This document shows positions 1,766 to 13,070 of a DNA stretch of 51,193 nt, piece after piece. Under the pieces are notes generated by a model. The model did no database searches. It saw only the letters and a program-made list of their open reading frames with translations, and was not told the origin of the DNA. The first letter of the stretch is position 1. The number at the start of each line of letters is the position of its first letter. A program made the translations under genes and the position numbers. The stretch is from a virus, in IMG/VR virus record IMGVR_UViG_3300035670_000303, positions 1 through 51,193 of that record; one strand, 5' to 3'.

Positions 1766-3518
1766 CGCCGCCCACCGCGCCGCTGGCCTTCGGGATGATC
1801 CCCAGGGCCAGTGCATCGAGCTTCGCGCCGGTCTCATCGAACCAAGCCGCCAGGGAGGCCTCCACCAGCTCCTCCTGGCGCCGCTGGGCCACGCGCAGCT
1901 GGTCCTGGGCCGCGGCCTCCACGAAGTGGGCTGCAGCGATCGCCAGGGCGTCGATCCGGTCGTCGTAGAGCAGGCTGCCCCTGTCGGTGGTAATCCGGCT
2001 CAGCTGGAACATCAGCGAGCGTGGGTGGCCGGTGTCCGCATCCCGCTCGGCACCTTCCCAGTCCTTCTGGATCAGCTCGCTGTTCACCACCAGCCGGTGC
2101 TGCTGCACCAGGGGCGCGAGCACGTCAATGATCCGCCGCTCCTTCTGCCCAGCTGACCGTGGGGCCTCCTCGATCGAGCAGGGGTAGATGCGCTGCATCA
2201 CCGGCTGCAGGATCTTGCTGAACATGCCATCGCCGAAGTTCGGCTCAGGGATGACGGCATTGACCTGCCAGCGCTTGGCGATGCCCGCCAGCAGCTCCAG
2301 CACGTCGTCCTCATACCCCCGGGTGGTGCCGCCGCTCTCGAGCACAAACAGGTTGCCGCTGAGCTCGGCCACCACCGCCCAGGACAGTTCATCACTGCCG
2401 CGGCCAGAGGGGTCGATCGCCAGCACGCTGCGCCACTTCTCCGACCTGGGCAGCCAGCCCTGCACCATCATCGGCCGGTGGTAGTAGCGGTCAGCACCCA
2501 GACCCACGCAAGGCAGTTCGTTGATCCGCTGCTCTGCGCCGGATGCCCAGCTGATCACCTCCGGCAGCGCCTTGCCATCCAGCGGCATCACGATCAGGTC
2601 GCCCAGCCGGATCGGGAACTTGTCGAGGGTGCTCAGCCGGCAGTTGAGCATGTACTGCAGCTGCCAGCTGGCCTTGGTGCTGCCGGTCTCCCGCTGGATC
2701 AGCTCGGTGTCGTCAAACCGCTCCGGGTCGGTTGGGCCGCCCACCAGCTGCGGGTTGGTCTCGATCTCCTCCACCATGAGGGGGTCGAGGCAGCCGTCGT
2801 AGACATCGAAGGTGTCCGGCTTGGGGTAGCGGGCCGGCCACATCCGCATCTTGTACCCGCGCTCGCGCACCAGCCGCCAGTACATCGACGTTTCCAGGTG
2901 CGGTGTGCCGCGGAAGCTGATCTGCCGTGGCAGCGGCTGGCCGGCATCCGGCAACAGGATCGACTCGAACTCGGTGGTGGCCGCCCACAACCGCTCCTGC
3001 TTGAGCGGCGTGATCGAGTTGGTGAGGGTCTCGATGTCGTCGGGAATGATCATCGTGGCCCGCTTGCCGGTCAGCGACGGGCTGAGGATCCCGCACGCCC
3101 GCACCGATGGCGCACCATCGCCGCCGATGATCGCCGGGCCCACGTCGAACGCCAGGACGGACTGCCGCTGGTTCTCCTTGGGCTGGAGGCACTGCAGCAG
3201 GTCGATCTCCCGGATGCACCGGGCCATGAAGGTGGTGATCTCCTCGGCCTTGGTTTCGGTGGCGCCAGGAATCAGGATCTTCTCGCCCTCAGGGTCAATC
3301 CGCAGCCGGTGCAATGCCCGGGCGCCGCTGATGGTGGATTTGGCGATGCCACGAAAGCCAACCGTCACCGTGCGGTTGGGGCCCACCTCGTCCCATTCAC
3401 AGATGCGCAGCTGCTGCTTGGTGGGTTCATCCGCTAGACCCAGCTCGCGGAGGATGTAGCAGAAGAAGTAGGCGAACCGGCCGATGCCCAGTTCAGGTGG
3501 GATGGGGTAGACGCTCAT
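1755..3518 (-). CDS. terminase large subunit (T7 gp19-like packaging ATPase/nuclease)
   Basis: 587 residues, almost the length of T7 gp19 (586). The N-terminal ATPase has a Walker A-type loop GFRGIAKST at residues 54-62 and a Walker B-like segment TMIIPDDIE. The C-terminal nuclease domain shows VLAIDPSGRGSDELSW and LLYDDRIDALAIAA, which supply the acidic metal ligands. The enzyme pumps DNA into the prohead through the connector and cuts concatemers. It is the last gene of a minus-strand cluster that starts at the RepL-like regulator, and its ATG overlaps a tiny upstream ORF. Having terL on the strand opposite to terS and the virion genes is unusual for T7-like phages. Confidence 0.92.
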   Translation of the reverse strand: MSVYPIPPELGIGRFAYFFCYILRELGLADEPTKQQLRICEWDEVGPNRTVTVGFRGIAKSTISGARALHRLRIDPEGEKILIPGATETKAEEITTFMARCIREIDLLQCLQPKENQRQSVLAFDVGPAIIGGDGAPSVRACGILSPSLTGKRATMIIPDDIETLTNSITPLKQERLWAATTEFESILLPDAGQPLPRQISFRGTPHLETSMYWRLVRERGYKMRMWPARYPKPDTFDVYDGCLDPLMVEEIETNPQLVGGPTDPERFDDTELIQRETGSTKASWQLQYMLNCRLSTLDKFPIRLGDLIVMPLDGKALPEVISWASGAEQRINELPCVGLGADRYYHRPMMVQGWLPRSEKWRSVLAIDPSGRGSDELSWAVVAELSGNLFVLESGGTTRGYEDDVLELLAGIAKRWQVNAVIPEPNFGDGMFSKILQPVMQRIYPCSIEEAPRSAGQKERRIIDVLAPLVQQHRLVVNSELIQKDWEGAERDADTGHPRSLMFQLSRITTDRGSLLYDDRIDALAIAAAHFVEAAAQDQLRVAQRRQEELVEASLAAWFDETGAKLDALALGIIPKASGAVGGVKR

Positions 3519-3634
3519 GCAGAGAGCCCCCCTGCCGAAACAGAGGGGCCCTCACACCACCACCGACCTTTGGCTTGGGCGTTCACCGCTGCCATCAAGC
3601 CGGTAGTCCCCCGGGAACCACCCCAGCAGGTCAT
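3515..3634 (-). CDS. possible 39-residue leader ORF upstream of terL
   Basis: ATG at 3634, stop overlapping the terL start (GCATGA), 11 nt after the stop of the preceding minus-strand gene. The spacing and overlap are like true coupled genes, but the peptide (starts MTCWGGSRGTTGLMAAVNAQ) matches no family I know. It also covers a G/C-rich hairpin, so it may only be part of a structured leader. Confidence 0.25.
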   Translation of the reverse strand: MTCWGGSRGTTGLMAAVNAQAKGRWWCEGPSVSAGGLSA

Positions 3635-4393: not shown

Positions 4394-4435
4394 TGTGAGG
4401 CGCGAATGGTGGGAGAAAGCAAGGTTCCCGCTAGT

Positions 4436-4461
4436 AGGTGACACCTAGGCGATCCCTAGGG
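4436..4461. promoter_or_regulatory. CCTAGG operator-like site upstream of the RepL-like gene
   Basis: AGGTGACACCTAGG at 4436-4449 contains the inverted repeat AGGTG-A-CACCT. A second palindrome CCCTAGGG follows at 4454-4461. Near-identical sites occur at 9047-9060 (AGGTATCACCTAGG) and 13071-13084 (AGGTATTGCCTAGG), the first with the same preceding TAGT. Probably the binding site of one of the phage regulators. Confidence 0.55.
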
Positions 4462-4903
4462 AATAACGAACTCAGCAGTGGTACAAATGTTCAGCCCAGT
4501 CATACCAAGGGATCTGCTCTCGATAAAGTGAATGTCGATTTACTTTAGCCCCCAAGCACCCCAGTCCACCACTGACGATCCGAGATTCAGTCTGATCTCT
4601 TACTGGAGACCCAAAGCAGATTCACAACCCGGGGGAAAGAAGGGGGAAAGAAGGACAGAGGGCCACTCCCACCACGCTGCCTCCCACCCCACCTCCAGCC
4701 GGGCTGCCACCCTGCCACGACCACACCACCATCGCCACCCACGCCCGCCTTCCGGTGGGGTGGCACCACCTCCCTGGTATCTCCGCACCCCAGCGGACCC
4801 GCAGCCGCCTTCCTGGGCCGCCTGGCCCCCTCCTGTGCATCGCTGCAGACCACCCGCCCCCGGGTTGATCGCTGCAGATCCGGCGTCATCCGGCCCAGAC
4901 CGT

Positions 4904-4963
4904 TTTGGGGTCGCGTCATCTAGTGGGGTCCCAATTTGGGGTCGCGTCATCTGGTGGGGTCCC
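4904..4963. repeat. tandem 29-bp direct repeat, period 31 bp
   Basis: Units 4904-4932 and 4935-4963 begin TTTGGGGTCGCGTCATCT and differ at one base (A4922 versus G4953). The location upstream of the early operon suggests iterons or operator sites. Confidence 0.85.
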
Positions 4964-5188
4964 CCACGCGAGGCGCAGCTGCTTCCCCCCTATGGGGGCC
5001 GCTCTGCTGCCCCTGGGGCCGCCGGTGGCTGCCCTGGTGCTGCCTGCCTGCCCTGCCTGCGGCTGCTGCGCACCCTGGGGCCTGCCCGGCCAGTGCTGGT
5101 GGGCCACTGCTGCGGATGCGTGATCCGCTGCGCCGGGCTGGTGGGGTGATGCCGGGGCAGCTGGGGTAACTGGTCCGCTCTTTTTTGA

Positions 5189-5203
5189 GAATGGTTCCCA
5201 TTC
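5189..5203. promoter_or_regulatory. inverted repeat in AT-rich early promoter region
   Basis: GAATGG-TTC-CCATTC is a perfect 6-3-6 inverted repeat. It is flanked by TTGAGA at 5185-5190 and TATTCT at 5205-5210, which could be weak -35/-10 elements (14-nt spacing is short), and by two direct GTTAC copies at 5215-5229. Likely an early host-polymerase promoter/operator. Confidence 0.35.
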
Positions 5204-5293
5204 CTATTCTTACTGTTACGAATTGTTACAGGTATGCACGCGCCCGCTTGGGACACGAATCAACCACGCACCAAAGCGGGCAGACTGTGGACA

Positions 5294-5309
5294 TCTGCAG
5301 TGATGCAGA
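5294..5309. promoter_or_regulatory. perfect TCTGCA-N4-TGCAGA inverted repeat before the early operon
   Basis: Reads TCTGCA GTGA TGCAGA, a perfect copy of the recurrent element. It is followed directly by a CCACCACCACC leader and the ATG at 5336. Confidence 0.65.
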
Positions 5310-5335
5310 CCACCACCACCGAACCTGGACAACCG

Positions 5336-5569
5336 ATGACCACGACGACCACGCCGGCGCCGCTTGCGGACGCTGGCGAGACGATGCAGCGGCTGGCGTT
5401 CTGCCTGACCGCTGCAGTAGTGGCAGGCCGCTGCCACCAGTCGCAGGCCGACCAAGCGCTGAGCCGATGGCTGATGCGCCCGGTCGAAGCCTCAGGGCTG
5501 ATGGAGCAGTTCGCCCACGTCAGCGCCGCCCACCGCGGGCTAATGCTGATCCGCTGGAGGCCTTCATGA
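5336..5569 (+). CDS. hypothetical early protein
   Basis: 77 residues from ATG 5336, beginning MTTTTTPAPLADAGETMQRL and then helical with Cys and Trp residues. A longer frame from 5234 would translate the palindrome and CACC leader, so the later start is preferred. No Shine-Dalgarno sequence; the start is preceded by a CACC-rich leader. First gene of the rightward early operon. No family recognised. Confidence 0.5.
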   Translation: MTTTTTPAPLADAGETMQRLAFCLTAAVVAGRCHQSQADQALSRWLMRPVEASGLMEQFAHVSAAHRGLMLIRWRPS

Positions 5570-5703
5570 CCCGCAGCACAGCCGCCGCCCTGGTGCTGGC
5601 GGTGCTGGGGATGGCAGCCGCCGCCCTGGTGCCGCCGGTGCCAGAGCTGCCCGGGGAAGCCCGGCCAGCAACGCCGCACCACTGGCAGCACGCCAGCCAC
5701 TGA
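5566..5703 (+). CDS. small secreted or membrane peptide
   Basis: 45 residues. The N-terminus is a long hydrophobic run (AAALVLAVLGMAAAALVPPV) after MTRST, like a signal peptide or membrane anchor, with a short Pro/His-rich tail. The ATG overlaps the previous stop (ATGA). Function unknown; early membrane peptides of lytic phages often target host envelope processes, but nothing here proves that. Confidence 0.45.
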   Translation: MTRSTAAALVLAVLGMAAAALVPPVPELPGEARPATPHHWQHASH

Positions 5704-5778
5704 CGACAGCCCGGAGGGGGCCCGGTGCCCTCTCCCTGCTGCCCTCAGCAGCACACCACCACCACCACCGACCGACCG
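5704..5778 (+). promoter_or_regulatory. intergenic leader cassette, copy 1 (two hairpins plus CACC tract)
   Basis: The order is AGCCCGGAGGG, then CCCTCTCCC able to pair back with it, a second hairpin (GCTGCCCTCAGCAGC), then an ACACCACCACCACC tract and ACCGACCG next to the ATG. The same layout fills the gaps 7168-7236 and 8188-8257. Confidence 0.65.
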
Positions 5779-5967
5779 ATGACCACGACACTTGCCGCCC
5801 TGGTGCTCGCCCTTCTCCTGTTGCCCTTGCTGGTCCTGTTGTGGGCCACCGAAAGCCGGCAGCAACGAGCCCGCCGGATGCGGGGATACGGGATGACTCA
5901 GCAGGCAATCGCAACCCGGCTGGGCTGCAGCCGCACCACGGTGCGCCGACTGCTCGCCGCGGCCTGA
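5779..5967 (+). CDS. membrane-anchored helix-turn-helix protein
   Basis: 62 residues. One strong membrane segment at residues 5-21 (LAALVLALLLLPLLVLLW) is followed by a basic stretch (ESRQQRARRMR) and a complete recombinase/homeodomain-like helix-turn-helix (GMTQQAIATRLGCSRTTVRRLL) up to the C-terminus. It should bind DNA while tethered to the inner membrane, which is uncommon for such a tiny protein. ATG 5779 is chosen because the frame upstream encodes the CACC leader as poly-Thr. It is preceded by leader cassette copy 1. Confidence 0.6.
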   Translation: MTTTLAALVLALLLLPLLVLLWATESRQQRARRMRGYGMTQQAIATRLGCSRTTVRRLLAAA

Positions 5968-6000
5968 TCACCACACCACCAACACCACCACCGACGACCG

Positions 6001-6363
6001 ATGACAACGACAACCGCAAAGACCAAGACCGAGGAGCTCGCCGCTGTGCGGGCCCTGGCCGACCAACTGGGCCCTAACAGCTACCTGGGCCCTTGGCTGC
6101 GCGACGCCCTGCCCTGGCTCGCTGATCAGCTCCGCTGTGACCTGATGCCCCAGCGGGCCCAAACCATGGTTGAGGAGGCAGCCCGCCTGAGGGCCGATGC
6201 CTGCACCGATGCCATAGCCATCCGCAACCAGGCCCACAACGAAGCCCGCCAGACCCGCGAGGAGGTCGAGGCATGGGCAGGCAAGCGGACGGAAGAAGTG
6301 AGCGCCATCACCGGCCGCGCATGGGACGCCCTGCGGCTGGCCATGAAGGAGCTCGAACGATGA
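6001..6363 (+). CDS. early coiled-coil protein
   Basis: 120 residues, starting MTTTTAKTKTEELAAVRALA. Residues ~60-118 are highly charged and helical with Ala-rich heptads (AARLRADACTDAIAIRNQAH), suggesting a coiled coil. The start is preceded by a CACC-rich leader without Shine-Dalgarno. Its stop overlaps the next ATG. No family recognised. Confidence 0.55.
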   Translation: MTTTTAKTKTEELAAVRALADQLGPNSYLGPWLRDALPWLADQLRCDLMPQRAQTMVEEAARLRADACTDAIAIRNQAHNEARQTREEVEAWAGKRTEEVSAITGRAWDALRLAMKELER

Positions 6364-6536
6364 AACAGCACCGATACCACCAGGGGGCCCTAGCGGTCCC
6401 CTCCGCACAACCCCGCGACTACAGCCCGCCCGAGCTTGAGCTAGCCGGCCCGCAACAGGGCTGGTTGGCCCTCGATGGCGGCGCCCTGGGTCCGCTGTTC
6501 AACGACCACACCACCACCACCGAACCCGACCGATGA
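6360..6536 (+). CDS. hypothetical small early protein
   Basis: 58 residues (MKQHRYHQGALAVPSAQPRD...). The ATG overlaps the previous stop and its own stop overlaps the next ATG (ATGA on both sides). The last residues (HTTTTEPDR) are encoded by a CACC-rich leader of the following gene, so the C-terminus may be a by-product of that leader. No family recognised. Confidence 0.4.
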   Translation: MKQHRYHQGALAVPSAQPRDYSPPELELAGPQQGWLALDGGALGPLFNDHTTTTEPDR

Positions 6537-6712
6537 CCCACGCCACAGCGCAACGCTGGCGACTGGTCAGCTACCACCCGACATGGGGCAGCGACTGGCG
6601 CCACTTCGCCACCTACTACGAGGCAGTGCAGGCCCGCGCCCGGCTGCTGGCCCTGCCGTCCGACGGCACCGGCTACACGATCGAGCCCTGCCAGCCGGAA
6701 GGGGACCGATGA
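6533..6712 (+). CDS. hypothetical small early protein, aromatic-rich
   Basis: 59 residues beginning MTHATAQRWRLVSYHPTW. Trp, Tyr and His are frequent in the first half, with a helix (YEAVQARARLLAL) in the second. It is coupled by ATGA overlaps at both ends. The CACC tract lies just before the start. No family recognised. Confidence 0.45.
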   Translation: MTHATAQRWRLVSYHPTWGSDWRHFATYYEAVQARARLLALPSDGTGYTIEPCQPEGDR

Positions 6713-6879
6713 CCCGCACCTATCCGCAGTGGTGCCGCTCCCTGTATTGCGGGGAGACGGCCTGCCCCGCTGGCTGCCCACACCTGCCCGAGCTGCAGGA
6801 GTTCAAGGCTTGGCAGCGGCGCACCAACGCGCACCAGCCGGACCCGATCTGGAGCCCGACCATCTGGCAGGAGGCCTGA
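6709..6879 (+). CDS. small cysteine-rich protein
   Basis: 56 residues starting MTRTYPQWCRSLYCGETACP. Four cysteines lie within residues 9-23 (C-x4-C-x4-C-x3-C), then His, which is compatible with a compact zinc site. Coupled to the upstream gene by ATGA. No family recognised. Confidence 0.5.
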   Translation: MTRTYPQWCRSLYCGETACPAGCPHLPELQEFKAWQRRTNAHQPDPIWSPTIWQEA

Positions 6880-6882
6880 ACA

Positions 6883-7167
6883 ATGCCCATCAACGACCTA
6901 TCGGACCCATGCGCTCAGGCGCTGCTGCGCAGCCGGGAACCCAAGCCGAACCCATGGCCCGGCAACCCCAACGCCTATGAGTGCCCCTGGGGCTGCAACG
7001 GGACCGGCTACATGCCGTGGTTCAGCCATATCGAAGGCGGAGTTTGTTTCCGCTGCCACGGGACCGGCTGGATTCTTGGCCGCGGCCACCAGCCCGCACC
7101 GATCAAGCGGGGCAACACCAGCCGCGCCAAATGGCGCAAGGAAGCCGGCCGGATCGTGCCGGCATGA
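6883..7167 (+). CDS. DnaJ-type zinc-finger protein
   Basis: 94 residues. Two CxxC-like knuckles, CPWGCNGTGY and CFRCHGTGW, have the CxxCxGxG flavour of the DnaJ central zinc finger. The C-terminus is basic (IKRGNTSRAKWRKEAGR) and could bind nucleic acid. It follows the cysteine-rich gene by 3 nt and ends just before leader cassette copy 2. Role unknown. Confidence 0.55.
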   Translation: MPINDLSDPCAQALLRSREPKPNPWPGNPNAYECPWGCNGTGYMPWFSHIEGGVCFRCHGTGWILGRGHQPAPIKRGNTSRAKWRKEAGRIVPA

Positions 7168-7236
7168 CACCAGCCCGGAGGGGGTGCGCTCCCTCCCTGC
7201 TGGTCTCACCAGCAACACCACCACCACCACCGACCG
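7168..7236 (+). promoter_or_regulatory. intergenic leader cassette, copy 2, before the ArdC-like gene
   Basis: The order is CAGCCCGGAGGGGG, then CTCCCTCC (hairpin 1), GCTGG-TCTC-ACCAGC-type hairpin 2, and AACACCACCACCACCACC with GACCG before the ATG. It keeps the order, spacing and many bases of copy 1, although the flanking genes are unrelated. Confidence 0.7.
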
Positions 7237-8187
7237 ATGACCAAGACCGCAACCAAGACCAAGCCCAAGACCCGCAAGCCCTACGACGGGCCCACCCCAG
7301 AGGAGAAGCTGGCCGCCGATCTCATCGCCCTGATGGAGCAGGGCATCAACCCATGGCGCCGGCCCTGGGTTGGCTTCAACGGCGAGCACCGCAACCTTCT
7401 GACCGGCCACCAGTACCGCGGGGGCAATCCGCTCCTGTTGGAGGTCGGCAACCTCAGCCGGGGCAACACGCTGCCCCTGTGGATGGGTGCCGGCCAGGCC
7501 AAGGCCAACGGCTGGATGCCAGCCAAGGGCAGCAAGGCCGCCCGCATCGCTCAGCCGCGGCCCGTGAAGTTCGAGGACCCCGACAAGGAGCCCGGCGAGA
7601 TCAGCAGCAGGGACAAAAACTTCATCGTCTATGGGCTGGTGCCCGTGTTCAATGCCGCCGACCTGGTGGGCGTTGACGAGGACAGCGCCGCGGCCCTGGC
7701 CCGCCGCATCGACGAGGCGACCGGGAAGGTCGATCACCGGCCCGAGCCAGAGCGTCTCGCGCACGCCGAGGACGTGTTGCAGGCCTGGCCCGTGGAGGCC
7801 CGCACCGGCGGCACCCTGGCCTGTTACAGCCCGGCGCTGGATCGAATCTCCCTGCCCGAGCCGCGGGCGTTCGACAGCCGCGAGCACTTCGCCGCGACCT
7901 GGGCCCATGAAGCGATCCACAGCACCGGCCATAGGGACCGGCTGGCCCGCGACCTGTCGGGCAAGTTCGGCACACCCGCCTACGCCCGGGAGGAGCTTAT
8001 TGCCGAAATGGGCAGCGCGATTCTCTGCCGCCGGCTGCAGATCGGCTCAGAGCTCAAGGACCATGCCGACTACCTGGGCGGCTGGTGTCAGATCCTGCGC
8101 GAGGACCCGCGGGCTGTGCTCAAGGCCCTGGGCGCTGCCAAGAAGGCCGCCGATCTGATTGCCCCCGAAGCGATCGAGGAGGCGTGA
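7237..8187 (+). CDS. ArdC-like antirestriction protein (ssDNA-binding N-domain plus zincin metallopeptidase)
   Basis: 316 residues. The N-terminal domain (about 18-150) has the ArdC-type phrases LMEQGINPWRRPWVG and NLLTGHQYRGGN, linked to single-stranded DNA binding. The C-terminal zincin-like domain has an HExxH motif near residue 225 (WAHEAIHSTGH) and a downstream Glu (EELIAEMGS). ArdC homologues on plasmids and phages protect incoming DNA from restriction, which would suit an early phage gene. It is expressed from leader cassette copy 2 without an obvious Shine-Dalgarno sequence. A role in ssDNA handling is also possible. Confidence 0.8.
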   Translation: MTKTATKTKPKTRKPYDGPTPEEKLAADLIALMEQGINPWRRPWVGFNGEHRNLLTGHQYRGGNPLLLEVGNLSRGNTLPLWMGAGQAKANGWMPAKGSKAARIAQPRPVKFEDPDKEPGEISSRDKNFIVYGLVPVFNAADLVGVDEDSAAALARRIDEATGKVDHRPEPERLAHAEDVLQAWPVEARTGGTLACYSPALDRISLPEPRAFDSREHFAATWAHEAIHSTGHRDRLARDLSGKFGTPAYAREELIAEMGSAILCRRLQIGSELKDHADYLGGWCQILREDPRAVLKALGAAKKAADLIAPEAIEEA

Positions 8188-8257
8188 TCCCATCCCGGAG
8201 GGCTGTGGCCCTCCCTGCTGGGTTCACCAGCGCAACACCACAACCACACCCCGAACC
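8188..8257 (+). promoter_or_regulatory. intergenic leader cassette, copy 3
   Basis: The order is ATCCCGGAGGGC, then GCCCTCC (hairpin 1), GCTGGGTTCACCAGC (hairpin 2), then AACACCACAACCACACC before ATG 8258. It is the third copy of the element at 5704 and 7168. Confidence 0.65.
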
Positions 8258-8446
8258 ATGCTCACCATTAGCACCACAGAGGCTGCCCTGCTGGCTGCCC
8301 TGCTCCGCCCAAGGGTCACAGCGCTCAGCGAGCTGCTGGCTGCCCAGATCCAATGCCTGCCGCCTGGCGATTCCAGCTGGGCCGATACGGAAGAACAGCT
8401 CGAGACCGCTCAGGCTGCCCTCTCCAAGGTGGAGGCGATCCGATGA
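8258..8446 (+). CDS. hypothetical small early protein
   Basis: 62 residues, MLTISTTEAALLAALLRPRV..., helical and Ala/Leu-rich with a probable second helix (EEQLETAQAALSKVEAIR). ATG 8258 directly follows leader cassette 3. The stop overlaps the next start. No family recognised. Confidence 0.5.
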   Translation: MLTISTTEAALLAALLRPRVTALSELLAAQIQCLPPGDSSWADTEEQLETAQAALSKVEAIR

Positions 8447-8589
8447 GACGCTTCCTGGGAATAATCAGGCCGCTGCGCGTGCCGCTGCTGTTCGTGGTCA
8501 TCCTCGCCGGCTGGCCCCTGGTGCTGCCCCTGGCCTGGCTCACGCTGCTGGGCTTCTGCGCGTACTGGTTGATCTGGGGGAAGCGATGA
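8443..8589 (+). CDS. small two-pass membrane protein
   Basis: 48 residues. MRRFLGIIRPLR precedes two hydrophobic stretches (VPLLFVVILAGWPLVLPL and AWLTLLGFCAYWLIW) and a basic end (GKR). ATGA overlaps on both sides show tight coupling. Function unknown. Confidence 0.5.
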   Translation: MRRFLGIIRPLRVPLLFVVILAGWPLVLPLAWLTLLGFCAYWLIWGKR

Positions 8590-8921
8590 GCGCCACCCCT
8601 GCAGACGTTGCCGCCATGCTGCGCGGCATCCGGGCCCACCATCAGGCGATCAGCGCCAGTGCAGTTGAGACGCTTTTGCACGTCGCAACAGGCGCAGACT
8701 GCAGCGCCGAGCTGTGCCGCCGAATGGGGGTGGTGCGCCAAACCGTCAACCGGAACCTGCAGCACCTAGTTGGCCGCGGCCAGATTGGCAAAGGTCGGGT
8801 TAGGTCCAGGCTGGGGCTGGTGCAGCGGTCGAAACACCCGGACCGCAAAGGGTTTCGGCTTGAGCTCACGGAAAACGGCCGCGAACTTTTAGCTAGTACA
8901 TTTGGACCATTTGAGCCATGA
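8586..8921 (+). CDS. winged-helix (MarR-like) regulator
   Basis: 111 residues from ATG 8586. A DNA-binding winged helix is seen at about residues 37-68 (SAELCRRMGVVRQTVNRNLQ), followed by a wing and KGFRLELTENGRELL. It resembles the protein at 9064-9381, and both lie just upstream of the integrase, a usual place for lysis-lysogeny control. Target unknown. Confidence 0.6.
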   Translation: MSATPADVAAMLRGIRAHHQAISASAVETLLHVATGADCSAELCRRMGVVRQTVNRNLQHLVGRGQIGKGRVRSRLGLVQRSKHPDRKGFRLELTENGRELLASTFGPFEP

Positions 8922-9046
8922 GAATTCGGCTTTTGGCGACCGTCTGCGTCCCTATCACAGGACGATGGCTGGAGTGGTCGCTATGGCTTGAGAACCATGG
9001 CGGCCGGCCCCGGCTTGCTCTGCAGCGGTGCCAAACTCCAGGTAGT

Positions 9047-9060
9047 AGGTATCACCTAGG
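9047..9060. promoter_or_regulatory. CCTAGG operator-like site before a winged-helix gene
   Basis: AGGTATCACCTAGG, 3 nt from the GTG at 9064. It matches the site at 4436-4449 in 12 of 14 bases and shares the preceding TAGT. Upstream, at 9019-9034, is a weak TCTGCA-GCGG-TGCCAA element. Confidence 0.55.
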
Positions 9061-9063
9061 ACC

Positions 9064-9381
9064 GTGGATCTCCGTTCACTGGCCTTGGCTTTAGGCACTT
9101 TTGCCACCCAAGACCCGACCCGTTTCCCGCTGCACCACGCCCGGCTGTTCCTTGAAGTCGCTCTAAACGAGCCGACCACCTTCGAGCACCTAGAGCAGGC
9201 CCTCAACCTGACCAACTCCAGCGTGTCCCGATCGGTCTCAGCCCTCAGCGATCGAAACCGCCACGGCGACCGCGGCTACCGGCTGCTCACCGTGGAACGC
9301 GACCCCGAGGAGGGGCGTCGCTTCCTGGTCCGCCTGAGCCCTAAAGGCCGGCTGCTGCTCCAGCAGCTGCAGCGGATCTGA
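9064..9381 (+). CDS. winged-helix (MarR-like) regulator next to the integrase
   Basis: 105 residues from GTG 9064. The recognition region LEQALNLTNSSVSRSVSALS and the wing (GYRLLTVERDPEEGRRFLVRLSPKG) are typical of MarR-type domains that use a single-domain form. Placed 34 nt before the integrase and directly behind an operator-like site, it is a good candidate for an autoregulated integration or lysogeny switch. Confidence 0.65.
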   Translation: MDLRSLALALGTFATQDPTRFPLHHARLFLEVALNEPTTFEHLEQALNLTNSSVSRSVSALSDRNRHGDRGYRLLTVERDPEEGRRFLVRLSPKGRLLLQQLQRI

Positions 9382-9415
9382 TCACACCACCACCACCACC
9401 ACCAACAGAACCACC

Positions 9416-10402
9416 ATGACCGGATCAGTTCGCCGCACGGCGGACGGCTGGATTGCCGATGTCTGCATCAACGGCACCCGCCGCACCGCCAAACGCAAGA
9501 CCAAGACCCAGGCCATCGAGGCCAAGCGCCAGCTGCTCGAGCTCCTGGTGGCCCGCAGCAAAGGCGAGCCGGACGGCATCACCATCACCGATGCCCGGGC
9601 CCTCTCCCTGCGCATCCGCTGGGCTGGCAAGGCCTTCGAGCGGACTGCGGCCATCTACAGCCAGGCCGCCGTAGATCACTTCGGCCCGCTCACCCAGCTG
9701 GGCAGCATCACTGCGCCAGCCGTGGAGGAGTGGCGGCAGCTGCTGCTGCGCGGCGGCAACCGCCCAGGGACCGTAAACGCCAAGGTGAGCTGCCTGCGGG
9801 CCATGTTCGGCGATGCCGTGCTCCATGGGCACCTGGCTGCAATCCCGCCGCTGCCCAGGCAGCTGACGAACCGCAACGTCAAGGACCGCACCTTCTCCGA
9901 TGCTGAGATCGCAGCGTTCTGCGATCGGTTCCATGCCGCAGGCCAACCCGCCGCGGCCGACCTTTTCATCTTCCTGCTGGAGACCTGCTGCAGGTGGGGC
10001 GAGGCCGAGCGGCTGCGTGGGGCTGATGTGGATGTGGAGCGCCAAAGGGTCACCTTCTGGGAGACCAAAGCCAACCGGGCCCGCAGCGTGCCGCTCACCC
10101 GCCGCGGCCTGGATGCCCTGCTCCCCCATCTGCCGGCCGTGCCGGGCCATCGGGTCTACCCCTACAGCTACAGGCAGTTCAAGTGGCTGTTCGAGTGCGC
10201 CAAGGAGGGGCTGGGCATCACCGACCCGGCCCTAACGATCCACTGCACCCGCCACACCTGCGCGAGCAAGCTGGCGACCAAGGGGATCCCGCTCCACCAG
10301 CTGATGGCCTTCGGCGGCTGGACCTCACTCCAGAGCGTGCAGCGCTACCTGCACCTGCACACCGATGCCCTGGCGTCCTGCGTGGCAGCGCTTGAGGCCT
10401 GA
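9416..10402 (+). CDS. int: tyrosine recombinase integrase
   Basis: 328 residues. The N-terminus is an arm/core-binding region (GSVRRTADGWIADVCINGTRR and a helical SAM-like domain). The catalytic domain shows Arg193 (CCRWGEAERLR), the HxxR pair His276/Arg279 in IHCTRHTCASK, a GGW motif, and the nucleophile Tyr311 in QRYLHL. It would integrate phage DNA at a host attachment site. Candidate attP sequence lies immediately downstream, before the RNA polymerase gene, as in cyanophage P-SSP7. The start is preceded by a long CACC tract instead of a Shine-Dalgarno sequence. The catalytic set looks complete. Confidence 0.92.
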   Translation: MTGSVRRTADGWIADVCINGTRRTAKRKTKTQAIEAKRQLLELLVARSKGEPDGITITDARALSLRIRWAGKAFERTAAIYSQAAVDHFGPLTQLGSITAPAVEEWRQLLLRGGNRPGTVNAKVSCLRAMFGDAVLHGHLAAIPPLPRQLTNRNVKDRTFSDAEIAAFCDRFHAAGQPAAADLFIFLLETCCRWGEAERLRGADVDVERQRVTFWETKANRARSVPLTRRGLDALLPHLPAVPGHRVYPYSYRQFKWLFECAKEGLGITDPALTIHCTRHTCASKLATKGIPLHQLMAFGGWTSLQSVQRYLHLHTDALASCVAALEA

Positions 10403-10440
10403 CTGTGGATGCGTCCACCGGATCACGGGAGGATGCAAAC

Positions 10441-10480
10441 TGGGTGCGGTTGGGTGCAGGTTTCTGCATCCTCTGCACCC
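10441..10480. repeat. short direct and inverted repeats downstream of int (candidate arm sites)
   Basis: Direct repeats TGGGTGCGGT (10441-10450) and TGGGTGCAGG (10451-10460), and a perfect 8-bp inverted repeat GGGTGCAG 10452-10459 / CTGCACCC 10473-10480. These could be integrase arm-binding sites or a terminator-like hairpin; no U-tract follows. Confidence 0.4.
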
Positions 10481-10519
10481 TTCTCATTTGCTGAGAAGCC
10501 TTGCCACAACTGGCCGGGG

Positions 10520-10566
10520 GTCTAGCTATCTGGTGAAAGCAGCGGACTCATAATCCGTTTTCCAGT
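10520..10566 (+). other. tRNA-like sequence with CAU anticodon arm; candidate attP core
   Basis: Positions 10542-10558 form a 5-bp anticodon stem (one G-T pair) around the seven-base loop CTCATAA, with CAT at 10549-10551. A D-arm-like TAGCTATCTGGTGAAAGCA precedes it. No matching acceptor or complete T arm is found, so it is a tRNA fragment rather than a working tRNA. Such fragments beside an integrase are typical attP cores that rebuild the host tRNA (here Met or Ile2 type) on integration. Confidence 0.6.
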
Positions 10567-10582
10567 TCTGCATCCCTGCAGA
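10567..10582. promoter_or_regulatory. perfect TCTGCA-N4-TGCAGA inverted repeat upstream of the RNA polymerase gene
   Basis: Reads TCTGCA TCCC TGCAGA. It directly follows the tRNA-like core and lies 88 nt before the RNA polymerase start, with another small inverted repeat (CCTGA...TCAGG) near 10590-10606. Confidence 0.6.
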
Positions 10583-10670
10583 TGTCTGGCCTGAACTGCA
10601 GTCAGGCACCCACTGATCAACTCTGCGGGGGTGGGGTGTAATAAGTGCATCGTGATACCGATGCTGCATC

Positions 10671-13070
10671 TTGCCTGCATCCTGCAATTCCTACACACCC
10701 TCGGAGGACCGCCAGCGGCATCTGGAATCGGCGGCTCAGGAGGCGGCAATCAACCGCTCGCGGATCGCCCGGGCCAAGCTCAAACAGCAGGAGAAGGAGA
10801 GCGCCACCGAATACGGCAGGGCCCTGTTCCATGCCCACGGCGAGCGGGTTGCGCTGGCGCTGGAGCACAAGCTGGGCAAGGCGCTGAACCGTGAAGAGTT
10901 GGCCGGCCCGTATCACGCCGGCATGTGGCTGCTGTTCCAGCTGGGCGACAAGGGGCCCCGCTCGATCGCTGCCGTCGCTCTGGGGGTGGTGCTCGATCGG
11001 ATCAGCAAGCCCACCAGCCACCGGGCCATGGCATCCGCCATCGGCAAGGCGATCGAGGCAGAGATCAGAGCGCTGCCGATCGAGGACCGGGGGCAGGATC
11101 TGTTGCGCATCGCCCGCCGGCGGCACGGGAAACAGCTGGCATCAAGGGCCCGGCTGGAGCAGCTGCGCATCCAGGTGGAGCCCTGGGCTGCTGCTGATCG
11201 CTTCCAGGTGGGCGCCTTCCTGCTGGAGATCATCACCACCGAAACCGAGCTCCTGCGAACGACGAAGCAGCCAGGGCGCCGCGGCCTGCAGCTGGTGCCG
11301 GCGCCCGTGGTGGCCGAGATCATCGCTGCCCATCCGCCCACGCCAGCCCGGGCCCGCCGGCTGCCGATGCTCACCCCGCCCAGGCCATGGGAGGGGATGA
11401 CCGGCGGCGGGCACCTCGACAACACCGAGCCCCTGGTGCGCAGCCGCAAAGGGCATCCGATCGACTACCTCACCACCGAGGCCCTGCAGCCGGCGCTGCA
11501 GGTGGTGAACACCCTGCAGGAGCAGGAGCTGCGGCTGGATCCATGGATGGTGGGCAACCAGCGCATTGCCTGGGATGCAAACTTGCGCGGCCTGTTCCCG
11601 ATCCTGCGCGATCCGATCGAGGCCCCGCCCAAACCCACCGAGCTGGTGGGCAAGGAGGCCATGGCCCGCTGGCATCAGCAGGAGCAGGCATTTCACCGGG
11701 ATCGGATCGAAGGCCGCCACGCCCGCAACCAGATCGAGAGCTCCATCCGCCAGGCCGAGCAGCTGGCCGGCGAGCAGCTGTGGTTCAGCTGGTGCATAGA
11801 CATGAGGGGCAGGGCGTACACCGCCAACCGGCTCACCACCCACCAGGGGCCCGACCATGAGAAGGCCCAGATCCTGATTGCCAACGCCAGGCCCTGCGAC
11901 GACCGCGCCGCCGACTGGATCCTCAAGGCTGCCGCGATCCACTGGGGCATGAAGGGCAGCTGGGTGGACCGGCTGCAGTTCGGGCGGGATCAGATCGAGC
12001 GGATGCTGGCCGCGGCCGAGGACCCGCTGGAGCGTGTCCATCTATGGCGTGATGCCAAGGAGCCGTGGCAGTTCCTGGCCTGCTGCCGGGCCATCCAGCA
12101 GTGGATCGAGGACCCCAGCCAGCCGATCCATCAGCCGGTGCGGCTGGATCAGACCAGCTCCGGCCCGGGCATCATCGGCGCGCTGCTGAGGGATCGCGGG
12201 CTGGCCCGGGCCTGCAACCTGATCGGCACCACCTGCCACGACCTCTACACCGAGCTGGCCCAGGAGGTGACGCTGCTGCTGCGCTCTGATCTGGAGGCCG
12301 GCGATGCCAAGGAGCAGCGGCACGCGGCCTGGTGGCTGGAGAAGGGCATCACGCGGGCCATGGCCAAGATCCCCGTCATGTCCACGGTCTACGGGGCGAA
12401 GCTGCTGGGTGTGACCGAGCAGCTGGTGGCCCTGCTCGATGAATCAGAGGGTGCGGTGTCCCTGGGCCGGCTGGAGCGCGAGCGGCTGCTGCCCTGCCGC
12501 TACCTGGCGCGGAAGTTCGGCCTGGCTGTTGGCGCCCGCCTGGGTGGCGCCGTGGCGTTCCAGGCCTGGCTGCGGGCCGTGGTGCGCTGCTGCAGCGCCA
12601 AGAACAAGCCGATGCAGTGGACAACACCGATGGGGCTGCCGATCCGGCTGGGCAAGGAGCTCACCGCCAGCAGCGGGGTGAAGTCGCTGCTGCATGGCAC
12701 CCGCCGCTGGCAGACGCTGCTGGATGCGCCGCCACCGGGGAAGCTCAGCGCCCTGGAGACCGGCCGGGCGATCACCGCCAACCTGATCCACTCCTTCGAC
12801 GCGGCCTTGGTGTGGGCGATGGTCTGCGATGGTGCAGATAAAGGCGTCACGGTGCTGCCCAACCACGACTGTTTCGCCGTCCCGCCCTGCGATGCCGAGT
12901 GGCTGCACAGCACGCTGCTGTGGCGCACTGGGGAGCTCTACCGGCCGGACTGGCTGGCCGAGATCACGGCCGAAATCCAGGCTACGGCTGGGGTGCAGCT
13001 GCCAACGCCGCCGATGGTGGGCACGCTGGAGGTGGGGGAGATCGGCAGGAACCCCTACCTGTTCTCCTAG
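10671..13070 (+). CDS. T7-like single-subunit RNA polymerase
   Basis: 799 residues if started at TTG 10671. The segment DRQRHLESAAQEA aligns with the T7 N-terminus, so the start should be near there, but it is not certain. T7 landmarks are present: PRPWEGMTGGGH; DMRGRAYTAN; catalytic Asp493 (LDQTSSG, T7 D537); GITRAMAKIPVMSTVYGAK with Arg562, Lys566 and Tyr574 (T7 R627, K631, Y639); and His732/Asp733 (NHDCF, T7 H811/D812). The C-terminus NPYLFS echoes the conserved aromatic end. It is ~80 residues shorter than T7 gp1, mainly in the N-terminal half. It should transcribe middle and late genes from phage promoters. Confidence 0.93.
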   Translation: MPASCNSYTPSEDRQRHLESAAQEAAINRSRIARAKLKQQEKESATEYGRALFHAHGERVALALEHKLGKALNREELAGPYHAGMWLLFQLGDKGPRSIAAVALGVVLDRISKPTSHRAMASAIGKAIEAEIRALPIEDRGQDLLRIARRRHGKQLASRARLEQLRIQVEPWAAADRFQVGAFLLEIITTETELLRTTKQPGRRGLQLVPAPVVAEIIAAHPPTPARARRLPMLTPPRPWEGMTGGGHLDNTEPLVRSRKGHPIDYLTTEALQPALQVVNTLQEQELRLDPWMVGNQRIAWDANLRGLFPILRDPIEAPPKPTELVGKEAMARWHQQEQAFHRDRIEGRHARNQIESSIRQAEQLAGEQLWFSWCIDMRGRAYTANRLTTHQGPDHEKAQILIANARPCDDRAADWILKAAAIHWGMKGSWVDRLQFGRDQIERMLAAAEDPLERVHLWRDAKEPWQFLACCRAIQQWIEDPSQPIHQPVRLDQTSSGPGIIGALLRDRGLARACNLIGTTCHDLYTELAQEVTLLLRSDLEAGDAKEQRHAAWWLEKGITRAMAKIPVMSTVYGAKLLGVTEQLVALLDESEGAVSLGRLERERLLPCRYLARKFGLAVGARLGGAVAFQAWLRAVVRCCSAKNKPMQWTTPMGLPIRLGKELTASSGVKSLLHGTRRWQTLLDAPPPGKLSALETGRAITANLIHSFDAALVWAMVCDGADKGVTVLPNHDCFAVPPCDAEWLHSTLLWRTGELYRPDWLAEITAEIQATAGVQLPTPPMVGTLEVGEIGRNPYLFS

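Follow-up and report, generated by a model that had tools for sequence, protein, structure and literature searches.

Five intercistronic sites in the early message of phage T7 are cleaved by RNase III, several of them upstream of the RNA polymerase gene (PMC4858673). In T4-type phages, mobile cassettes termed PeSL contain an early promoter together with a terminator-like stem-loop (Arbiol et al. 2010; Comeau et al. 2014, cited in PMC4503421), and the SAS/ESAS sequences of cluster K mycobacteriophages are start-associated, about half of them with an upstream inverted repeat, and have no known function (PMC3203893). Here we describe an intercistronic element that resembles each of these systems in part. 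It occurs three times in the early region of the viral record IMGVR_UViG_3300035670_000303, whose full length of 51,193 bases constitutes the window of this study. Each copy joins the stop codon of one early gene to the start codon of the next. Comparison of sequences and predicted folds indicates that the three cassettes are members of one RNA element family in the early region of T7-like cyanophages from both pond and sea.

A sequence-only reading of the window had noted three gaps, at 5704-5778, 7168-7236 and 8188-8257 (75, 69 and 70 nt), that share a GGAGGG...CCCTCC hairpin, a GCTG...CAGC hairpin, a CACC tract and an ATG in this order, and we confirmed positions, lengths and order for all three. 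The sequence CCCGGAGGG has exactly three occurrences in the window, all at the cassettes, and a sequence-free descriptor (stop codon and the parts A, H1, B and C described below) gives exactly three matches on the whole plus strand, versus 0.33 in Markov shuffles. While the gaps were correctly placed, the element itself begins 3 nt earlier, at the stop codons (5701, 7165 and 8185), because the UGA is base-paired in one of two folds. The earlier description of two hairpins was incomplete in that a third arm, the one containing the stop codon, had been missed, and with it the two-state nature of the element.

Arm A comprises the first 10 nt of the element, namely the UGA stop codon of the upstream gene and the following 7 nt. 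Hairpin H1 sits between A and arm B, the 10 nt just after H1, and arm C, a partial copy of A, lies behind B. Arm B can pair with A or with C, the latter helix being the second hairpin (H2) of the earlier reading, and the two pairings are mutually exclusive. In the A:B state, the RNA is one long irregular hairpin, with UGA:UCA at its base, followed by a 1x1 mismatch, about 6 bp, a 2x2 loop and then H1. The B:C state consists of two adjacent hairpins.

Copies were collected with three pattern scans of viral contigs, through relatives of the window's tyrosine integrase gene (9416..10402, plus strand; a marker for finding relatives and context rather than part of the element) and with a covariance model, R1, built from 34 copies. 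In total, this yielded 95 distinct copies, many of them matched by the model in other phages, with E-values down to 7e-14. In the 34-copy alignment, the nine pairs of H1 are paired in 100% of cells, and three of them show double-sided changes. The larger alignment A3 (94 rows, 77 distinct) was fitted to H1 and H2, not to A:B; its rows are related to one another, two of them are antisense mirrors, and sequence patterns that fix part of the 5' arm of H1 served to find many of the copies in the first place. On A3, A:B is paired in 90.1% of cells versus 26-44% when slid by 1-3 columns, and contains 52 double-change cells versus 18 in shuffles, a count reached by none of 500 shuffles. Pair 5:65 comprises 46 GC and 25 CG, and pair 8:62 occurs as AU, UA and CG. 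The competing helix B:C is paired in 88.6% of cells, with 12 double-change cells versus 1.0 in shuffles, and H1 and A:B together are 93.4% paired, with 12 pairs changed on both sides. The A:B pairing keeps a single 10-position register in practically every copy, with UGA opposite UCA, an almost invariable mismatch at position 4, and pairs at positions 5-10 with at most one or two exceptions. Arms from the same copy score 8.0 for A:B, versus 6.76 +/- 0.13 when A arms are exchanged between copies. The cores of B fall into four types (GCUG, GCAG, GAGG and GUGG), each with fitting A and C cores, and in 19 of 66 distinct H1s the loop is a c(UNCG)g RNA tetraloop. Compensatory changes, which a structured RNA cassette would be expected to show, are thus present and strongly support it, and the predicted H1, A:B and B:C pairings are all well supported by them.

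The three window copies, all on the plus strand, illustrate this design. Copy 1 extends from its UGA to the base before the ATG at 5779 (5701..5778; R1 74.9 bits, E 1e-12) and matches the descriptor. Its arm A (5701..5710; UGA at 5701-5703 plus CGACAGC) pairs with arm B (5738..5747; GCTGCCCTCA), UGA with UCA, and B is complementary to A and C both; H1 (5713..5735, 9 bp) is backed by fold and covariation, arm C (5748..5753) forms the 3' half of H2 (5737-5753) when A is masked, and a CACC leader, unstructured by sequence and fold, fills 5754..5778. Copy 2 (7165..7236, from UGA to before the ATG at 7237; R1 66.9 bits, E 4e-11) has an arm A (7165..7174; UGA plus CACCAGC) in which 9 of 10 positions pair with arm B (7199..7208; GCTGGTCTCA), a folded H1 of 8 bp (7177..7196), an arm C (7208..7214) that provides the 3' half of H2 (7198-7214) in the fold, and a CACC leader at 7215..7236. 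In copy 3 (8185..8257, from UGA to before the ATG at 8258; R1 67.4 bits, E 3e-11), 8 of 10 positions of arm A (8185..8194; UGA plus TCCCATC) pair with arm B (8217..8226; GCTGGGTTCA), H1 folds with 7 bp (8197..8214), arm C (8227..8232) is the 3' half of the folded H2 (8216-8232), and the leader occupies 8233..8257.

Conservation of the element starts with the stop codon. Positions 1-3 read TGA in 85 of the 95 copies and TAA or TAG in none; for comparison, TGA is used by 36 of 47 genes of Synechococcus phage S-SRP02, a member of the Autographiviridae from a Singapore lake and the nearest named relative of the window, and by 25 of 40 long open reading frames of the window. In all ten copies without TGA at this place, positions 2-3 are still GA, and nine of these copies have a stop codon a few nt upstream, which suggests that the GA is kept for pairing.

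The two states were modelled by forcing A:B, or by masking arm A as a terminating ribosome would. Both folds lie within 2 kcal/mol of each other in 64 of 93 copies, and the probability of A:B falls between 0.05 and 0.95 in 67 of 93. In 91 of 94 copies, the start of H1 is 12-13 nt downstream of the U of UGA, a spacing that matches what a ribosome at a stop codon covers on its downstream side, and the distance from the end of H2 to the AUG has a median of 24 nt. With these distances, H2 would end just outside an initiating ribosome, H1 and H2 would fit between two ribosomes, and A:B could form only while the stop codon is free of a ribosome. The CACC leader and the AUG of the window copies are unpaired in both states.

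Across the whole records of 22 viral contigs and S-SRP02, strong R1 matches occur only in one early-region cluster, usually with two to five per phage. In contigs where both could be placed, the elements lie upstream of the RNA polymerase gene and on its strand; in the window, the T7-like RNA polymerase (Pfam RNA_pol and RPOL_N) is encoded at 10671..13070 on the plus strand. The window also encodes a terminase large subunit as well as capsid and tail proteins, and the three gaps are located between the terminase gene, on the opposite strand, and the integrase and RNA polymerase genes. All accepted copies are in the sense direction; minus-strand matches at the same places are a quasi-palindromic mirror of the hairpins and were rejected as antisense copies. 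In S-SRP02, the descriptor matches elements at 11605 and 12019, and an R1 match at 12790 that fits the three-arm design poorly was excluded from fold and identity statistics. The descriptor also matches one element in the marine uncultured phage AP013547. Visual inspection of AP013547 and AP013548 added two junctions compatible with the design, one of them with AGA:UCU at its base and a C.C mismatch at position 4. The three-arm junctions of these marine relatives differ in sequence and lie at 6261 and about 6527 of stretch L104 and at about 3190-3280 (minus strand) of stretch L107; in one, a TAG overlaps the AGA:UCU base pairs. With the descriptor, no match exceeding the chance level was obtained in P-SSP7, in Syn5 or in the early region of T7, and AP013546 gave none that looked like an element.

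The CACC tract forms a module of its own. (ACC)n leaders stand directly before early ATGs without hairpins at 5309-5337, 5983-6000, 6509-6532 and 9385-9415 of the window, and the tract also precedes starts in S-SRP02. The translation leader considered by the sequence-only reading is therefore plausible for the tract, which is not restricted to the hairpin cassettes: early genes of the window phage seem in general to be translated from an A/C-rich leader, which likely acts as an unstructured landing site for Shine-Dalgarno-independent initiation. By contrast, a fragment near terL (3541-3567) that had been regarded as related is not a copy. Its sole hairpin, of 4 bp, is no more stable than those of shuffled sequences (z +0.55), arms A, B and C are absent, no ATG follows, and neither model nor descriptor matches it; the CACC tract is all that it has in common with the cassettes.

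We propose, with a probability of roughly 0.45, that the cassette is a ribosome-gated intercistronic processing and insulation element that would work like the T7 early RNase III sites with an added switch. A ribosome terminating at the UGA would cover arm A and force H1 and B:C, a state in which a second ribosome would have access to the CACC start region. With no ribosome at the UGA, the hairpin of A:B and H1 would form and might serve as an RNase III-type processing and insulating site that separates the two cistrons, and the unstructured CACC leader would then allow independent translation of the downstream gene. Since the unit brings its own stop-to-start junction, it could work before any gene and be reshuffled together with genes. 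This proposal is favored by the shared location and virus family, the similar folds of the T7 sites, and the RNase III encoded in 34 of 41 genomes of a candidate host family. More generally, the element may be a bistable ribosome-sensing RNA part whose state is set by the ribosome at the upstream stop, and which provides T7-like cyanophages with an interchangeable stop-to-start junction for dozens of unrelated genes, a wider claim that we advance at somewhat less than even odds.

Several observations weigh against processing and insulation. With its short, mismatched lower A:B helix and a symmetric 2x2 internal loop, the hairpin may be a poor RNase III substrate; the T7 sites have no arm C in the folds made here, whereas the element has a second, exclusive fold. 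The UGA:UCA pairs hardly vary, and their support comes from register and GA retention, not from covariation. In addition, A:B is favored in 57 copies and B:C in 36, so that either could be the resting state and the other a transient one, and the energies come from nearest-neighbour models at 37 C.

The same geometry could reflect a translational-coupling switch, through which upstream translation tunes downstream initiation without any RNA cleavage. In the A:B state, the free arm C would lengthen the single-stranded landing site, and B:C would shorten it. This would account for the stop codon inside A:B, the footprint-like spacing, the near-equal energies and the tight distance between H2 and the AUG. 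Nevertheless, we consider it doubtful: the expected effect on initiation is small when leader and AUG are unpaired in both states, and unrelated genes on both sides of the elements suit an insulator better than gene-specific coupling.

The genes around the elements are indeed diverse. As the sequence-only reading had stated, those following the three window copies are unrelated: a 62-aa helix-turn-helix protein (5779-5967), an ArdC-type antirestriction protein (7237-8187; Pfam ArdcN and MPTase-PolyVal) and a 62-aa protein without a Pfam match (8258-8446). Across the family, downstream proteins form 32 clusters and upstream proteins 34, nine upstream families each have more than one downstream family, and 21 pairs of elements that are at least 98% identical stand before different downstream families. 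Such near-identical copies before unrelated genes imply that the elements shuffle, and copy 1 shares 88.7% nucleotide identity with elements from phages in which the RNA polymerase has 28% identity to that of the window. The element may spread with gene exchange or be extremely constrained, and both may hold. The suggestion of a mobile intergenic element thus stands as far as shuffling is concerned; we saw no sign of self-driven transposition, although empty/filled site pairs in close relatives were not searched for. Taken by themselves, the gene swaps and the nucleotide identities of up to 89% to copies in phages with about 28% identical RNA polymerase would fit a PeSL-like conserved linker, a module boundary whose main role is the exchange of early genes by homologous recombination. 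We regard this as improbable, because shared sequence suffices for recombination, which needs neither compensatory changes nor RNA tetraloops nor co-changing A, B and C arms. An RNA function is also indicated by the constant distances to the stop and start codons, and shuffling may be a side effect of the element, not its purpose.

A role in transcription is more improbable still. The sequence-only reading had held that the cassettes are not usual promoters or terminators, and we agree: no U-tract and no terminator- or promoter-like match was found at them. An intrinsic terminator was rejected because no T run follows the hairpins, and a promoter in the cassette because a consensus scan, the only method used here, found no sigma-70-like site in 4400-10700. 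The choice between A:B and B:C could in principle act as a translation-coupled attenuator or as an HK022 put-type antiterminator RNA that affects polymerase pausing, as three exclusive segments recall trp-type attenuators and two adjacent hairpins recall put RNA. Against this, besides the lack of a U-tract or terminator-like match, the presence of several between-gene copies per operon is unlike a single promoter-proximal put site or attenuator. Lastly, it is very improbable that the hairpins only block 3' exonucleases or shield the message from RNase E, up-regulated by the MarR of a related cyanophage, since a hairpin directly after the stop codon and a weak MarR match beside the integrase would fit this role but conserved arm C and the A-C match would be left unexplained.

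That match, at 9064-9381 before the integrase, is to the MarR family and falls below the Pfam cut-off. In P-SSP7, the phage MarR (pMarR) drives host RNase E expression (PMC9692554), and the two observations together raise the possibility that RNA processing is manipulated in this lineage. Two further features of the window lie near the early region: a unit of the form TTGGGGTCGCGTCATCT(A/G)GTGGGGTCCC, present twice at 4905-4970 upstream of it and possibly operator- or origin-like, and, ahead of the first early gene, an AT-rich stretch at 5185-5235 with a GAATGGTTCCCATTC palindrome that is a candidate for an early control region.

Other readings were rejected. Readthrough of the UGA, as in genes with a selenocysteine insertion sequence-like element or in fused genes, does not agree with TGA-ATG distances of 78, 72 and 73 nt, nor with their lack of conservation modulo 3 among relatives. 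A GTG within the copy 1 H1 was dismissed as an in-frame start, as the GTGs of copies 2 and 3 are out of frame. A host-genome repeat was dismissed after the exact pattern gave only scattered matches, unlike the cassette, in 84,980 species genomes, and the covariance model found nothing at E <= 0.05 in 201 genomes from the family of a Synechococcaceae metagenome-assembled genome, a weak test with strict filters. In the contig L046, CGA replaces TGA and the RNA polymerase gene contains in-frame TGAs; TGA recoding was considered for it and rejected, since the gene is frame-shifted in several places. This T7-like RNA polymerase homologue (L046 10150-12192), with several frameshifts in addition to the in-frame TGAs, may belong to a decayed prophage or reflect sequencing errors.

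The element represents a structured phage RNA family with an unusually complete comparative record, consisting of 95 copies with three co-varying arms; a search of Rfam gave no match at gathering score or a meaningful E-value. It is not mentioned in the S-SRP02 genome paper, and we found no earlier description of it in the literature searched on cyanophage hairpins and intergenic elements. The family offers a testable case of how T7-like phages insulate their early genes in hosts with poorly known RNA processing, and bears on how such genes can be exchanged without rebuilding their expression signals. A compact stop-to-start part could also be useful in cyanobacterial expression constructs.

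Among known systems, the T7 RNase III sites share with the element the family Autographiviridae, the early region and the position between early genes. The T7 early junctions, when folded here, are likewise irregular hairpins with an upper stem, an internal loop and a lower stem, an arrangement that is conserved by covariation in the element, and at the T7 0.4/0.5 junction (T7 1424-1499) the UGA stop of gene 0.4 lies in the lower stem. The folded T7 sites differ in having a larger, asymmetric internal loop, no sequence relation was found, and T7 contains no match to the three-arm descriptor; membership in the T7-type RNase III sites cannot be claimed from sequence alone. T4 PeSL cassettes are also intergenic stem-loop cassettes that recur between early genes and have been associated with the shuffling of modules, and the element has the PeSL-like trait of standing before different genes with gene swaps at the cassette. 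It is nevertheless placed outside the PeSL definition because no promoter match, by consensus scan, and no U-tract were found, and its arms begin at the stop codon. SAS/ESAS sequences resemble the element in their location before genes of different families. They differ in their 17-bp inverted repeats with variable spacer, in the lack of a stop-codon arm and of a reported alternative fold, and in sequence and hosts, and the family consensus is distinct from the GGGATAGGAGCCC-type start-associated sequence.

In trp-type attenuators, consecutive RNA segments pair exclusively, and a ribosome at a stop codon can mask one of them. On comparative and energetic grounds, the element likewise has two exclusive helices, one of which a ribosome could mask; unlike these attenuators, it has no leader peptide and no terminator-like T run and occurs in many copies between ordinary genes. 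The separate ingredients, an intercistronic hairpin, a shuffled cassette and alternative pairing, are already known, and we know of no description of their combination with a stop codon inside the fold. Whereas intercistronic elements are usually described as single hairpins, here the fold takes in the stop codon itself and a competing arm is preserved, suggesting a local readout of translation termination within a polycistronic message.

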